Shown here piece after piece: positions 658 to 4,230 of a stretch of 23,360 nt of DNA. Below the pieces are notes generated by a model. It was not told the origin of the DNA and searched no databases. It was given only the letters and a program-made list of their open reading frames with translations. Source of the DNA: a virus; IMG/VR virus record IMGVR_UViG_3300007735_000504, positions 1 to 23,360 of that record. One strand, written 5' to 3'. A program made the translations under genes and the position numbers. Within the stretch, counting starts at the first letter, position 1. Each line of letters begins with the position of its first letter.

Positions 658-980
658 TCTGTTGCCCTTACTTGCATTCGTGCGGAGGCTTCCTCTGACC
701 TCCAAATATCCACCCTCATCCTCGCAGCCTCCAGCTTCCACTTCAGTTCTTCCTCAATCTCTATGGCTTCCTGCAGGCCTTTGAGGAGTTGCTGATACTC
801 CGGGTGAGCGTAGGCCTCTCGCTCTTGAGCATTGGCGGCTTCGTACTTCGCCATTGCGTCTTTCATCAGCAGGGCTTTCTTGGTCTTACGGAACTCTTCT
901 AAGTAAACCCTTTGTGCTTTGGCTTTTGAGTAATCCCCTGCGTTTCTGATGATGAAGTCCACCGCTGCGTTTGCGTTCAT
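654..980 (-). CDS. Conserved phage hypothetical protein (108 aa), coiled-coil-like
   Basis: The protein runs from MNANAAVDFIIRNAG to RMQVRATE. It is rich in Glu, Lys, Arg and Ala with long helical stretches. The central REAYAHPEYQQLLKGLQEA and the late LKWKLEAARMRVDIWRSEEA segments match my recollection of a small phage protein found near recombination and replication genes. The start at 980 was chosen over the in-frame GTG six bases upstream because GAGGGG lies 5 nt before this ATG, and because the ATG overlaps the preceding stop as ATGA. A role alongside recombination nucleases is suggested only by neighbourhood. Confidence 0.8.
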   Translation of the reverse strand: MNANAAVDFIIRNAGDYSKAKAQRVYLEEFRKTKKALLMKDAMAKYEAANAQEREAYAHPEYQQLLKGLQEAIEIEEELKWKLEAARMRVDIWRSEEASARMQVRATE

Positions 981-1846
981 TCCCACCCCTCAATCAAGTG
1001 AGAGAACTCGCCTGTTATTTGCTTGTACTTTTTGCTGTCAACCAAAACAAGCGTCACTAGCGGGTGGTATTTCTTCATTCTCTTGAGCTTGGTCTTGCTT
1101 CTATCATCCATCCAGCCCTTGACCTCATGGTATTCCTCGGAGCCATCCGGTTTCAGCACCCAGAAATCAGGCAGATAGCTAACGCAGCCCCTCTTGATGC
1201 CTTCGAACCAAAAAGTCCTTGGCTCATGCTTCCAGTCAGTGATGGCGCTGTTGTTTTTTTGCCACTCAAGAAACCTGGCGTAATTTGCTTCCCATCGCGA
1301 ACGGTAAAACTTTTCCTCTGTCCCAATCGTTCGCCAACCACCCTTCCATGTGGTCTTGATGCGTGGATTAACCAGTGTTCCGTTCTTGGCCTTTGTCTCA
1401 AGCATCTTTTTTAATTTTTCAAACTTTTTATCTTCAGACATTTCAGCAAATCTTTTCTTTGAAATATCTGAAAACCTTGCTTTCGTTTCAGCAGAATGCT
1501 TTTTGCCAAGCATCCCTCTTGGATGAGGATTTTCCTTGAGACGCTTTTTAGCTTTTTCTGAAATTGCTGCTTTTTGCGCTTCAGTCTTTTTTAGCTTTCC
1601 ATCCTCATGCAACTTCTTGATGACCAACGCTTGATCTGGCCTCTTTTTGCCAACTTTGCTTTGCGCGGCCCTGGCTTGCCAATCCTTGAAGAACTCAGAT
1701 TCCGTGTTTGCTTTGAGTCCAAGCTCTGCGGCCATCCATCGAACGGATGCCTCGCCTCGACCAAGTGCATTAGCGCACCACATCTTCCCCTTATCGGGAT
1801 AGTTGTTTTTTAGCAACACCAGTTCTTCATCAGTCCATTTTTTCAT
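977..1846 (-). CDS. Putative PD-(D/E)XK endonuclease with NUMOD3-like region, homing-endonuclease-like (289 aa)
   Basis: Residues 3-45 (WTDEELVLLKNNYPDKG onward) look like a SANT/Myb-type or HTH DNA-binding module. Residues about 60-135 are Lys-rich and contain a NUMOD3-like segment, NPHPRGMLGKKHSAETKARF, typical of the DNA-binding spacers of phage homing endonucleases. The C-terminal third carries a likely PD-(D/E)XK fold: SRWEANYARFLEW with Glu186, YLPDF with Asp227, and HEVKG with Glu241 and Lys243. There is no strong Shine-Dalgarno before the start at 1846; translation may depend on reinitiation. It is flanked by small genes with no terminator, as expected for an inserted mobile nuclease. 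It could instead be a resolvase-like or recombination nuclease. Confidence 0.75.
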   Translation of the reverse strand: MKKWTDEELVLLKNNYPDKGKMWCANALGRGEASVRWMAAELGLKANTESEFFKDWQARAAQSKVGKKRPDQALVIKKLHEDGKLKKTEAQKAAISEKAKKRLKENPHPRGMLGKKHSAETKARFSDISKKRFAEMSEDKKFEKLKKMLETKAKNGTLVNPRIKTTWKGGWRTIGTEEKFYRSRWEANYARFLEWQKNNSAITDWKHEPRTFWFEGIKRGCVSYLPDFWVLKPDGSEEYHEVKGWMDDRSKTKLKRMKKYHPLVTLVLVDSKKYKQITGEFSHLIEGWE

Positions 1847-1864: not shown

Positions 1865-2053
1865 TCAGCCGACATTGACAACATTCTTGCGAAGCTCATT
1901 CATTTTTCTCCGTAACTGCTCGGCTGAATCTTTGCCCCGTTTCTTTTCGATACTAGATATTGTTCGGCCCCACCACCCAGCAGCGGCTTCGAGTCCTTTG
2001 GTGGCTTTCATGTCGTTGAAGATTCGGATGTAATGTCGCGCCTCGCATTCCAT
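1865..2053 (-). CDS. Small basic hypothetical protein (62 aa)
   Basis: The protein begins MECEARHYIRIFNDMKATKG and continues with AAAGWWGRTISSIEKKRGKD and a basic C-terminus. The ...ARHYIR...IEKKRGK... layout resembles small phage proteins of unknown function. The start at 2053 is chosen because GGAG lies 6 nt upstream. It overlaps the 3' part of the 68-aa gene in another frame by about 100 nt, so one member of the pair may be shorter than drawn. Probably co-transcribed with the methyltransferase locus upstream and the endonuclease downstream. Confidence 0.65.
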   Translation of the reverse strand: MECEARHYIRIFNDMKATKGLEAAAGWWGRTISSIEKKRGKDSAEQLRRKMNELRKNVVNVG

Positions 2054-2159
2054 CCTCCAGGTCTCCTGTGAGATAGAGGGCGTGTGAGATGAGTTCTGTG
2101 GAGTGGTCGATTCCATCTTTGACCTCATTCAGAAGTTTGTGGGCTTCAAAGTAGTTCAC
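1953..2159 (-). CDS. Small hypothetical protein (68 aa), GTG start
   Basis: The N-terminal half, MNYFEAHKLLNEVKDG...ELISHALYLTGDL, has the look of a small phage protein with a short helical repeat ending in LxxTGDL. The second half (after about residue 36) overlaps the 62-aa gene and looks less protein-like (Arg/His-rich), so the functional part may be only the N-terminus. The start is a GTG at 2159 with GGAG 8 nt upstream, overlapping the end of the 424-codon frame by 14 nt. Function unknown. Confidence 0.6.
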   Translation of the reverse strand: MNYFEAHKLLNEVKDGIDHSTELISHALYLTGDLEDGMRGATLHPNLQRHESHQRTRSRCWVVGPNNI

Positions 2160-3420
2160 TTAATTCTCTCCATGCGGTTGCTGCACATAAGGGGACTTGT
2201 CCGTTTCCAATGGCTTTAAGTCTGTCCACCCTAGCGGTTACGCCAGATGCGACTCTTGGGATGATCTGCGTTTCATCCATGCCAGTTTGTTTCCACACTC
2301 CCTGCTGCAGGTCTTTTCTCTGGCTCGTTTGTAAGTGAATATCTTCCCGCAATACAGACACTTTCGGTCTTTCGTGTGATCCTTCCATCTCTGATTGGCA
2401 TGAAGCGACCCGTGACACTTGCTGCAAAGAACCATCAAGTTCTTGCTCTGGTTGTTCGTTGGATCGTTGTCCAGATGGTGCCTGTGAAGGGTCTCTGTCC
2501 CACCACATCGTTCGCACGAGACGAGATTTTTGTAAAGCCGCTGCGCTTGCTTCCTGCCAGCGTTGAAAGTCTTTTTGGTTGATTGCATTGAGATTGCTCC
2601 AGGTGATAGGCCAATTCATCAACCATTCTACCCAATCAGGGTTCAGGGTTCCACCAATCGCACTGGACAGGGGTGGCGAATGCCCCTCTCTGGGTTGTGC
2701 GCCAGTCCCGCTCTTGTAGTCCCGCCTGGTCGGAGTTGGGAACCTGACCGCATCCACCAATTGAACTTGCTTCCCAGGTCTTGGCCTGCCACTGCTTCCC
2801 CTGCTGCCCGATGCTATTGGAGTGGGCCATTTCGCCACTTGAGTTGCCAACCCATCCCCGCTCGTCTTGCTTGCACCCTTGCGGTTGTGGTTGCCGCATA
2901 CGGTTGGAGTGGCCCACAAGCCAGAATCTATCCCTTTGGTGCGGCGCTCCGACATCGGCAGCTCCCATAACAGTCCACCTCGTGTCATACCCGAGCGCGG
3001 CAAGGTCTGCAATGACTCGGGTTCCTCCTCTAGAAGTGAGCATTGGGCTGTTCTCCACAAAGACGAATCGGGGTCTAACTTCGCCAACCACCCGCGCCAT
3101 GTGTTTCCACATTCCGCTTCGCTCGCCATCAAGCCCATCTCCTTTTCCTGCGACTGAGATGTCCTGACAGGGAAAGCCTCCCGATACAACATCAACAATT
3201 CCTCTCCACGGTCTTCCGTCAAAGGTTTGAATGTCATCCCAAATCGGGAAAGGCGGGAGAAGGCCGTCATTTTGTCGGGCGGCAAGTACGCAAGCTGCGT
3301 ATGGCTCCCACTCAACTGCACAGACGGTTTGCCATCCGAGGAGCTTTCCTCCAAGGATTCCACCTCCTGCTCCCGCGAAGAGTGCAAGCTCTCGTAAAGG
3401 GCTTTTGAAATCAACCACAT
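2146..3420 (-). CDS. Overlapping-frame methyltransferase-associated protein (424 aa) carrying C5-MTase motif X
   Basis: This 424-codon frame covers the whole methyltransferase gene in the +1 frame and continues past it. It starts at an ATG sharing one base with the stop of the DUF1376 gene (TAATG), with GAGG 5 nt upstream. Several segments recall a widespread phage family: FGMTFKPLTEDRGEELL (61-76), three W/F-x-TP units (LWATPT near 168-173, KWPTPI near 197-202, RFPTPT near 226-231), CGNHNRKGASKTSGDGLAT (175-193) and LNPDWVEWLMNWPITW (259-274). The C-terminus, RVDRLKAIGNGQVPLCAATAW (about 397-417), matches motif X of cytosine-5 methyltransferases, which the MTase frame lacks. It may be a separate subunit, the downstream half of a frameshift fusion, or partly a shadow of the MTase frame. 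I consider it coding at least from about 2640 to 2146. Confidence 0.65.
   Translation of the reverse strand: MWLISKALYESLHSSREQEVESLEESSSDGKPSVQLSGSHTQLAYLPPDKMTAFSRLSRFGMTFKPLTEDRGEELLMLYREAFPVRTSQSQEKEMGLMASEAECGNTWRGWLAKLDPDSSLWRTAQCSLLEEEPESLQTLPRSGMTRGGLLWELPMSERRTKGIDSGLWATPTVCGNHNRKGASKTSGDGLATQVAKWPTPIASGSRGSSGRPRPGKQVQLVDAVRFPTPTRRDYKSGTGAQPREGHSPPLSSAIGGTLNPDWVEWLMNWPITWSNLNAINQKDFQRWQEASAAALQKSRLVRTMWWDRDPSQAPSGQRSNEQPEQELDGSLQQVSRVASCQSEMEGSHERPKVSVLREDIHLQTSQRKDLQQGVWKQTGMDETQIIPRVASGVTARVDRLKAIGNGQVPLCAATAWRELSELL
2238..2588 (-). CDS. HNH endonuclease with second zinc finger (116 aa), nested inside the methyltransferase locus
   Basis: Residues 25-59 form a textbook HNH/zinc module: Cys25-x2-Cys28, HRHH at 35-38, then DPTNN, and LCSKCH with Cys55, Cys58 and His59. 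A second zinc-binding element follows: Cys77-x2-Cys80, KIFTYKRAREKTC with Cys94, and Cys98. This pattern is common at the C-terminus of phage HNH proteins. It has its own GGAG 8 nt before the ATG at 2588. It lies wholly within the 424-codon frame but in a different register, so the same DNA encodes two recognisable products. It may be a homing-type nuclease that colonised the MTase gene, or a nuclease working with the methyltransferase. Coding is very likely. Confidence 0.85.
   Translation of the reverse strand: MQSTKKTFNAGRKQAQRLYKNLVSCERCGGTETLHRHHLDNDPTNNQSKNLMVLCSKCHGSLHANQRWKDHTKDRKCLYCGKIFTYKRAREKTCSRECGNKLAWMKRRSSQESHLA
2636..2641 (-). other. Candidate programmed +1 ribosomal frameshift site CCC-UGA
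   Basis: The methyltransferase frame ends GAA-CCC-TGA. Moving the proline tRNA from CCC to the overlapping CCU gives a +1 shift, and reading continues GAT-TGG-GTA (DWVEW). This restores the WWxxEPD junction usual for this kind of methyltransferase and leads in frame to motif X. Proline CCC-U followed by a stop is the documented +1 site of Listeria phage PSA structural genes. The fusion product would be 423 aa. I have not identified an upstream stimulator sequence. Confidence 0.55.
2636..3418 (-). CDS. DNA cytosine-5 methyltransferase, catalytic part (260 aa, motifs I-VIII)
   Basis: C5-cytosine methyltransferase motifs appear in order: motif I FAGAGGG (14-20), the acidic residue of motif II at Glu36 (CAVEWEPY), motif IV GGFPCQ with catalytic Cys84, motif VI ENS at 122-124, and motif VIII QRDRFWLVG (161-169). 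A variable region with three A/V-H/N-S-N/D units follows (near 170-235), where target recognition is expected. The frame ends WWNPEP at a CCC-UGA stop without motifs IX-X, which lie in the +1 frame. The start is taken as the GTG at 3418 with GAGG 7 nt upstream; an ATG for the other frame is two bases earlier. The enzyme would methylate phage DNA, probably against host restriction. Alone it looks incomplete: it needs a +1 shift or a partner subunit. Confidence 0.88.
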   Translation of the reverse strand: MVDFKSPLRELALFAGAGGGILGGKLLGWQTVCAVEWEPYAACVLAARQNDGLLPPFPIWDDIQTFDGRPWRGIVDVVSGGFPCQDISVAGKGDGLDGERSGMWKHMARVVGEVRPRFVFVENSPMLTSRGGTRVIADLAALGYDTRWTVMGAADVGAPHQRDRFWLVGHSNRMRQPQPQGCKQDERGWVGNSSGEMAHSNSIGQQGKQWQAKTWEASSIGGCGQVPNSDQAGLQERDWRTTQRGAFATPVQCDWWNPEP

Positions 3421-4160
3421 TAGCGCCTCAAGATGCTTTGGATTTGCTGACGAACCTCAAGCGGGATCTGCTCTCGCTTCTTGCGGTCCTCGTCCAACTT
3501 GACCAGCGCAGGATCTCGCTCAGGACGGCTTGGGACGGTGAGCTGAGTTTGCGGCTTGAAATTTTGGTTCTTTTGGCTACGAACCCAGTTTCGCCAGGTC
3601 GCATCCCAGTCCAACTTCACGCCTGCCTGCCCCGGTTTGGCGATCCAGTAGTCCCTGAAGCTCTCGAACACTTCTCGAGGCACAAGGTCTGGCCGCTTCT
3701 CTTTGCAGAAGTTGGCCCACTCAGGAGGAAATGGATAAAGGGGGTCAAGGCGCGTTCCGCGCACAACCTTTGGTTTATGGTTATTGGTTTCTGGTTCTTG
3801 GTTTATGGTTAGCTTTCCAGTCGGTTGCGACTCGGAACCCACTGGGTTTTGTTTGGGCCTTCCACCTCTAGAACCATTGGAGCGATTGCGCTCTGCAAGG
3901 GCCTGATACTTGGCGATTTCTTTGTCGCACCGCTCGTTTCGATAGCCGTCTTCGGTCCGCTCAAACATGTCGTTGAGCACATCTCGAACGATGCTGCCAT
4001 CCACTCGTATCCGCCTGGAAACCCACTCGGTATCGAGCGGGATTTGACCCTCAAGGTCATAGTACATGTCAAGAAGACGCCTGTAGGCCAAATCTTCTTC
4101 GTTTGTCAGATGGGCGGTTGAGGACCGATAGTCCCCAATGTGGAACTGGTAGTAGTGCAT
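3420..4160 (-). CDS. DUF1376 replication-type protein (246 aa)
   Basis: The N-terminus, MHYYQFHIGDYRSSTAHLT...EEDLAYRRLLDMYYDLEGQIP, is diagnostic of DUF1376, a family found at the position of replication initiators in many phages. After residue about 100 comes a basic linker (RNRSNGSRGGRPKQ) and a low-complexity stretch (LTINQEPETNNHKPK). The C-terminal part has FPPEWANFCKEKRPDL and LDWDATWRNWVRS, as in phage replication proteins that recruit a helicase loader. The start at 4160 is chosen over an in-frame one at 4193 because AGGGG lies just upstream and MHYYQF is the family start. Its stop overlaps the next ATG as TAATG. It carries an iteron-like array within its coding sequence, similar in layout to lambda O with its origin. 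Confidence 0.85.
   Translation of the reverse strand: MHYYQFHIGDYRSSTAHLTNEEDLAYRRLLDMYYDLEGQIPLDTEWVSRRIRVDGSIVRDVLNDMFERTEDGYRNERCDKEIAKYQALAERNRSNGSRGGRPKQNPVGSESQPTGKLTINQEPETNNHKPKVVRGTRLDPLYPFPPEWANFCKEKRPDLVPREVFESFRDYWIAKPGQAGVKLDWDATWRNWVRSQKNQNFKPQTQLTVPSRPERDPALVKLDEDRKKREQIPLEVRQQIQSILRR
3771..3812. repeat. Six tandem 7-bp units TGGTTNN (candidate replication iterons)
   Basis: The plus strand reads TGGTTTA, TGGTTAT, TGGTTTC, TGGTTCT, TGGTTTA, TGGTTAG without any interruption: six head-to-tail heptamers, also readable as three 14-mers. The array lies inside the DUF1376 gene and encodes its NQEPETNN linker. The 7-bp period is out of phase with codons, so the constraint looks DNA-level rather than protein-level. 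Iterons inside an initiator gene mark the phage lambda origin; here that role is inferred. Slippage in a low-complexity linker is the alternative. Confidence 0.8.
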
Positions 4161-4173
4161 AACACCCCTTACT

Positions 4174-4230
4174 TCACCCCAAAAGGAAACCAACGGCAGG
4201 CGGGGGTGTGTCGCTTTTCGGGAGGCTCAT
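4174..4230 (-). CDS. Candidate 18-aa leader peptide upstream of the DUF1376 gene
   Basis: A very short reading frame, MSLPKSDTPPPAVGFLLG, is preceded by a strong Shine-Dalgarno (GGGAGG, 5 nt before the ATG). It lies between the Cro-like gene and the DUF1376 start, in the same direction, and ends 13 nt before the DUF1376 ATG. The three consecutive prolines could stall ribosomes in the absence of EF-P help, so it might act as a translational coupling or leader element. There is no homology support; the strong ribosome site is the only solid evidence. Confidence 0.4.
   Translation of the reverse strand: MSLPKSDTPPPAVGFLLG

Follow-up and report, generated by a model that had tools for sequence, protein, structure and literature searches.

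The analysed DNA is a virus record of 23,360 bases, referred to here in its full length as the window, and the locus lies on its minus strand. Two long overlapping reading frames, named alpha (frame 1) and beta (frame 2, +1 relative to alpha), and a third ORF encoding an HNH endonuclease were found there, with the following features.

2636-3418, minus strand: alpha, predicted C5 methyltransferase catalytic subunit with motifs I-VIII; 260 aa, GTG start, ending in CCC-TGA
2146-3420, minus strand: beta, with the predicted specificity region and motifs IX and X; 424 aa, ATG start at 3420, N-terminus MWLISK; phrog_1008, 6e-25
3426-3429, minus strand: GAGG, Shine-Dalgarno-like by sequence, 5 nt before the beta ATG and 7 nt before the alpha GTG
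3415-3422, minus strand: TAATGTGG, where by sequence the TAA of the upstream gene overlaps the beta ATG (3420-3418), which overlaps the alpha GTG (3418-3416)
3220-3261, minus strand: beta motif FSRLSRFGMTFKPL, where alpha reads LLPPFPIWDDIQTF; the place at which synonymous diversity falls most
2915-2950, minus strand: alpha motif VIII, GAPHQRDRFWLV; the final segment of frame 1 under clear constraint
2701-2919, minus strand: beta specificity region LWATPTVCGNHNRKG...WPTPIAS...FPTPTRRDYKSGTG; frame-2 substitution pattern, with an in-frame counterpart in single-chain actinophage enzymes
2590-2652, minus strand: beta motif IX-like GTLNPDWVEWLMNWPITWSNL; nearly invariant columns
2636-2641, minus strand: CCC-TGA ending alpha; not conserved
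2588-2635, minus strand: LGRMVDELAYHLEQSQ, frame 1 after the stop, resembling LGRVADGVAARVDRLK of complete relatives
2238-2588, minus strand: HNH endonuclease ORF in the third frame, 116 aa, between motifs IX and X and overlapping beta; phrog_1271, 3.6e-10; same site in relatives
2170-2262, minus strand: motif X, IPRVASGVTARVDRLKAIGNGQVPLCAATAW; encoded by frame 2 in the window and by frame 1 in relatives of class 1

The upstream neighbour of the pair is a primosome-like gene (PHROG 3992 and others; 3420-4193, minus strand) ending in TAATG, and the overlap of its end with the beta start suggests that the two may be translationally coupled. Elsewhere in the window, positions 977-1846 (minus strand) encode a Holliday-junction-resolvase-like protein (PHROG 190, 8.7e-21), with an additional resemblance to homing endonuclease PHROG 314 in its N-terminal region.

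The C5 methyltransferase motifs I-VIII (SAM site, PCQ, ENV and RxR) are present in frame 1, with ENS replacing ENV. Alpha matched Pfam DNA_methylase (E=2.4e-32) over residues 11-175 only, corresponding to motifs I-VIII, and also matched phrog_363 (9.8e-61) and, by sequence, M.HhaI (1.1e-15). Its C-terminus reads ...CDWWNPEP and is followed by CCC-TGA (2641-2636), and the specificity region and motifs IX and X are absent from frame 1 of the window and lie in its frame 2. The original prediction had described frame 1 as stopping at CCC-TGA and the +1 frame as running to motif X, which was confirmed in the sequence, and the 423 residues that it calculated for a slip at this site were reproduced; a +1 step at another site, when translated, gave the same length. 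Frame 2 is open over the entire methyltransferase gene (3420-2146), also upstream of CCC-TGA, and reaches RVDRLKAIGNGQVPLCAATAW (2262-2170), so that a +1 shift anywhere in the gene would reach motif X.

The phrog_1008 family matched by beta is named DNA methyltransferase, and a search of Pfam and NCBIfam found no family for beta. Viral loci were fetched via frame 1 (80 loci) and via frame 2 (70 loci), giving 83 unique genes, and frame 2 was open along the gene in 80 of them; the third frame of the 83 genes usually met a stop within 24-76 codons. When frame 1 was shuffled synonymously, frame 2 stayed open in a median of 0.1% and a maximum of 7.8% of cases. Since the second fetch selected through frame 2, the alpha-chosen set was counted separately, and frame 2 was open past motif VIII in 59 of 62 genes, the three exceptions being L025 and L074, which are indel-permuted copies with shifted frames, and L061, with one stop. 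By region (n = 74 genes), frame 2 was open in 74 genes compared with 19.2 expected in the N-terminal part, and in 73 compared with 9.7 and 73 compared with 20.6 in the other two regions. Both L098 and L061 have a single in-frame stop in an otherwise open beta. The mean pLDDT from AlphaFold was 56.7 for beta and 45.8 for an alpha-beta fusion, the latter with a poor alignment mixing alpha and beta rows; confidence in both models was too low for them to be informative.

Pairwise DNA differences at frame-1 codon positions 1/2/3 were.148/.074/.334 up to motif VIII, which is the signature of frame 1, and.251/.086/.164 after motif VIII, which is the signature of frame 2, with 264 of 291 pairs in agreement, these pair counts not being independent since the compared loci share kinship. 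The second 60-nt bin after motif VIII gave.448/.166/.148, and the pattern drifted back towards frame 1 near motif X. The DNA after motif VIII evolves as frame 2, indicating that the specificity region and motif IX are encoded in frame 2, and the HSNS-type frame-1 text across the specificity region would be mostly passive. Inside the alpha core, synonymous diversity (observed/expected) fell to 0.29 and 0.48 of the gene mean where frame 2 reads FSRLSRFGMTFKPL. Most of the N-terminal half of beta showed mainly frame-1 evolution, with frame-2 constraint in patches only, which counts against a reading as two subunits.

In most relatives, alpha begins with NTG-AATGAG, which places a frame-2 ATG 4 nt after its start. 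AATGAG was found in 117 of the 119 loci with N-E-L, giving frame-2 ATG-AG, and AAT is a minority Asn codon elsewhere; the Leu codon of N-E-L was CTG or TTG in 112 loci, far from the codon use elsewhere in the gene. This codon choice points to a conserved ATG belonging to beta itself, usually 4 nt after the start of alpha. Frame 2 might still be an untranslated by-product of codon bias in alpha, as beta has no Pfam or NCBIfam family and most annotations list one frame only, but this is contradicted by the shuffles, the flip in codon positions, the start-codon bias and the beta-specific motifs, and is considered very improbable.

The original prediction, which cited CCC-U as the +1 frameshift site of Listeria phage PSA, proposed that the enzyme is completed when tRNA-Pro slips by +1 at CCC-TGA. 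The site is present in the window and the +1 frame is open to motif X; motif X and the other parts missing from frame 1 are indeed encoded in that frame, on which selection acts, but slippage at CCC-TGA as the way to reach it was not supported. A programmed slip there would retain the frame-1 segment 2914-2639, which is not under selection, frame 2 being the selected frame after motif VIII. The anticipated conservation of CCC-TGA, or of another slippery codon plus stop, was not seen either: CCC-TGA occurs in the window alone, 11 other class 2 loci (those with motif X in frame 2) are without it, and the first frame-1 stops in class 2 relatives were AAG-TGA, CCG-TAA, ACT-TAA, CAA-TAG, TTG-TAG, TCG-TAA, GAG-TAG, AGG-TAG, CCA-TGA and GCC-TGA. 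Nearly all complete relatives have GAA CCC N.. at this place, with TGA after CCC solely in the window, and CCC is common among them because frame 2 encodes Asn-Pro there. A comparison of homologues at the junction showed that in class 1 relatives no shift is needed to reach motif X, which frame 1 itself encodes. Selection on frame 2 is not confined to the part downstream of the slip site and extends far upstream of CCC-TGA, start included; a late frameshift would never translate the conserved start and N-terminal motifs of frame 2, which argues against slippage at this site. No stable RNA structure was found downstream of CCC-TGA (z = 0.19), although a stimulatory structure is not always required. 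Slippage of tRNA-Pro at CCC-TGA has a minimal chance of being correct, and the resemblance of CCC-TGA to a frameshift signal most likely arose by chance in a single member. A local mutation or sequencing error alone is contradicted by the class 2 relatives, which share this architecture.

Relatives of class 1 carry motif X in frame 1, and their frame 2 runs only as far as the end of motif IX. Class 2 comprises the loci in which frame 2 encodes motif X: the window, L083/L090, L092-L094, L096-L101, L103, L106, L108, L112, L118 and L132. Frame 1 of class 2 stops at differing places and codons, with up to nine stops (L092), and frame 2 remains open; frame 1 of the window has one stop before the junction, and LGRMVDELAYHLEQSQ after it is likely a relic of the lost C-terminus of frame 1. 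The simplest account of both classes would be that supplying motif X is the sole reason for retaining the tail of frame 1, which decays when frame 2 takes over this supply, an order of events that we infer from the present sequences.

The HNH ORF (2588-2238) contains the HNH motif and has the phrog_1271 match given above, and its match to Pfam HNH (0.0021) is below the curated cut-off. The same HNH is present at the same site in L083, L092-L094 and L097-L099, and more distant HNH ORFs occupy that site in L106, L054 and L132; in L103 there is no HNH and the frame-2 join to motif X is retained. Beta runs uninterrupted across the HNH gene in 9 of 11 loci, compared with 0-1.25% of synonymous shuffles of HNH, the two exceptions being L098, with one frame-2 stop, and L093, whose HNH ORF extends beyond the end of beta. 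A group I intron with an HNH ORF was also considered and rejected, since no Rfam intron match was found in 2000-3600 and HNH ends inside the motif X segment. Alpha could instead be a broken gene, with frame 1 truncated by the HNH insertion and the enzyme dead in this phage, in keeping with the missing motif X of frame 1, the position of HNH at the junction and the likely remnant in frame 1 of its former C-terminus. This is improbable, given that about a dozen class 2 loci retain the architecture, that alpha I-VIII and beta are intact with beta open through HNH, and that L103 lost HNH yet kept the frame-2 motif X.

A programmed +1 frameshift could also occur between motif VIII and the first frame-1 stops, not at CCC-TGA, and in class 2 would yield a single chain with motifs I-VIII from alpha and the specificity region, IX and X from frame 2. 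The product would match the motif order of the single-chain actinophage enzymes, in 79 of the 80 genome loci examined (the best 80 of 235) frame 2 is offset by +1 from frame 1, and a frameshift was left open for Corndog gp7/gp6 (PMC4351075). However, as motif X is in frame 1 in class 1, ribosomes there would have to shift into frame 2 and then return to make a single chain, no obvious slippery codon-plus-stop is shared just after motif VIII, and the conserved frame-2 ATG and N-terminal frame-2 motifs would be left unexplained, so that such a frameshift is judged unlikely.

The reading favoured here, with a probability of roughly 0.77, is that two co-extensive overlapping genes at this locus specify a C5 cytosine methyltransferase of two subunits, both predicted to be translated and to assemble into a methylating enzyme. 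What the sequence itself shows are the open frames, the frame selected in each region, the conserved beta start, the non-conserved CCC-TGA and the HNH overlap. Alpha would supply the SAM-binding and catalytic motifs I-VIII from frame 1, and beta, from its own ATG beside the start of alpha, would supply the DNA-specificity region and motif IX from frame 2. In most relatives motif X stands at the end of alpha; in the group of the window, with the HNH gene between IX and X, motif X is read as the end of beta, and stops have accumulated in the decayed tail of alpha. A single active enzyme would form from the two chains, and it probably protects the phage DNA from restriction.

As in enzymes of the two-polypeptide type, the motifs of the window are divided between two reading frames. 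The beta polypeptide of M.EcoHK31I is read from an alternative frame inside alpha. M.AquI and M.EcoHK31I are natural C5 enzymes of two polypeptides divided at these motifs (PMC3404938). In M.EcoHK31I (YGGCCR), the larger polypeptide has motifs I-VIII and X, the smaller has IX only, and the TRD was placed in the larger (PMC3404938); it likewise needs two polypeptides and its motif split is matched by class 1 relatives, whereas here selection puts the TRD in frame 2 and motif X of the window is on beta. The likeness is one of motif division, and the locus is described as probably working like M.EcoHK31I, with no claim of identity. In M.AquI (CYCGRG), the large subunit has motifs I-VIII and the small subunit has the distal variable region and IX-X (PMC3404938), which is the same motif division as in the window, but the variable region of the window is wholly in beta, beta spans the entire alpha gene in another frame, and HNH is nested in it.

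Corndog gp7/gp6 of the cluster O mycobacteriophages resembles the overlapping arrangement of the window, in that an N-terminal methylase gene is followed by a C-terminal one that overlaps it and whose coding potential extends into gp7 (PMC4351075), but no HNH insert was described for it. Two subunits, a frameshift, a hop or an intron were left open by its authors in 2015; RT-PCR showed no splicing, the extent of the overlap was left ambiguous, and the products were not detected by mass spectrometry (PMC4351075). Gordonia phage Jabberwocky gp4 and Mycobacterium phage Daenerys gp70 are single chains matching both phrog_363 and phrog_1008, with the same core, LPTP-type region and motifs IX and X as the locus, but all in one frame, and by sequence they confirm the predicted identity of the beta specificity region. 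As in phage homing-endonuclease genes-in-pieces, an HNH gene lies at the boundary of a divided enzyme gene, although in this locus overlapping frames share the enzyme between them and beta continues across the HNH gene without a stop. A literature search on phage methyltransferase overprinting found no other description in the papers covered.

A genome scan was performed with the beta alignment, and among the best 80 of 235 loci, which were examined, alpha was in the frame one base upstream of beta in 79 bacterial or archaeal loci, and the alpha-beta overlap was >300 nt in 77. These best 80 of 235 loci ranged from Pseudomonas and Acinetobacter to Spirochaetia, Verrucomicrobia, Patescibacteria and one archaeal assembly, where metagenome bins may be misassigned. 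Isolated phages with the pair include Salmonella, Klebsiella, Pseudomonas, Vibrio and Mycobacterium phages. The chances appear about even for the wider proposal that two co-extensive frames encode the methyltransferase in phages, in genome records of many bacterial phyla and in one archaeal assembly, the half that reads DNA being encoded in the +1 frame, that the N-terminal half of beta, overprinted on the catalytic core, has its own function, and that with HNH in the third frame all three frames of one strand are used in the group of the window.

Two-polypeptide C5 methyltransferases were already known and overlapping phage methylase genes were left unresolved in 2015 (PMC4351075); the substitution data point to co-extensive overlapping subunits, with an overlap of typically 750-1000 nt. 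The specificity region sits in the frame omitted by many annotations, and since most of the records examined list one frame, the presumed DNA-reading half is often missing or called an ordinary methyltransferase. The locus also offers a natural system for studying dual coding and the passage of a catalytic motif between overlapping genes.

Several variant layouts were observed. In Paenibacillus phage Tadhana (gp54/gp55, L005), beta (gp55) starts 202 nt inside alpha. Rebeuca gp80/gp79 (L006) is a split enzyme with an overlap of 50 nt only, in which gp79, the C-terminal half and also a member of PHROG 1008, starts just after motif VIII. Both subtypes count against the favoured reading, as do the single frame-2 stops in L098 and L061. 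The related phage copies L016, L064 and L071 have poly-G tracts of 11, 11 and 9 G in the specificity region (gene positions 588, 681 and 639), where alpha and beta are both out of frame with their ends and 10 G would restore both, a pattern suggestive of phase variation or of a homopolymer error. In the chromosome of E. coli PT62, a natural prophage copy at positions 1254488-1255210, which would be convenient for laboratory work, shares 94.9% DNA identity with the Kluyvera locus L221 and is annotated only as DNA cytosine methyltransferase.
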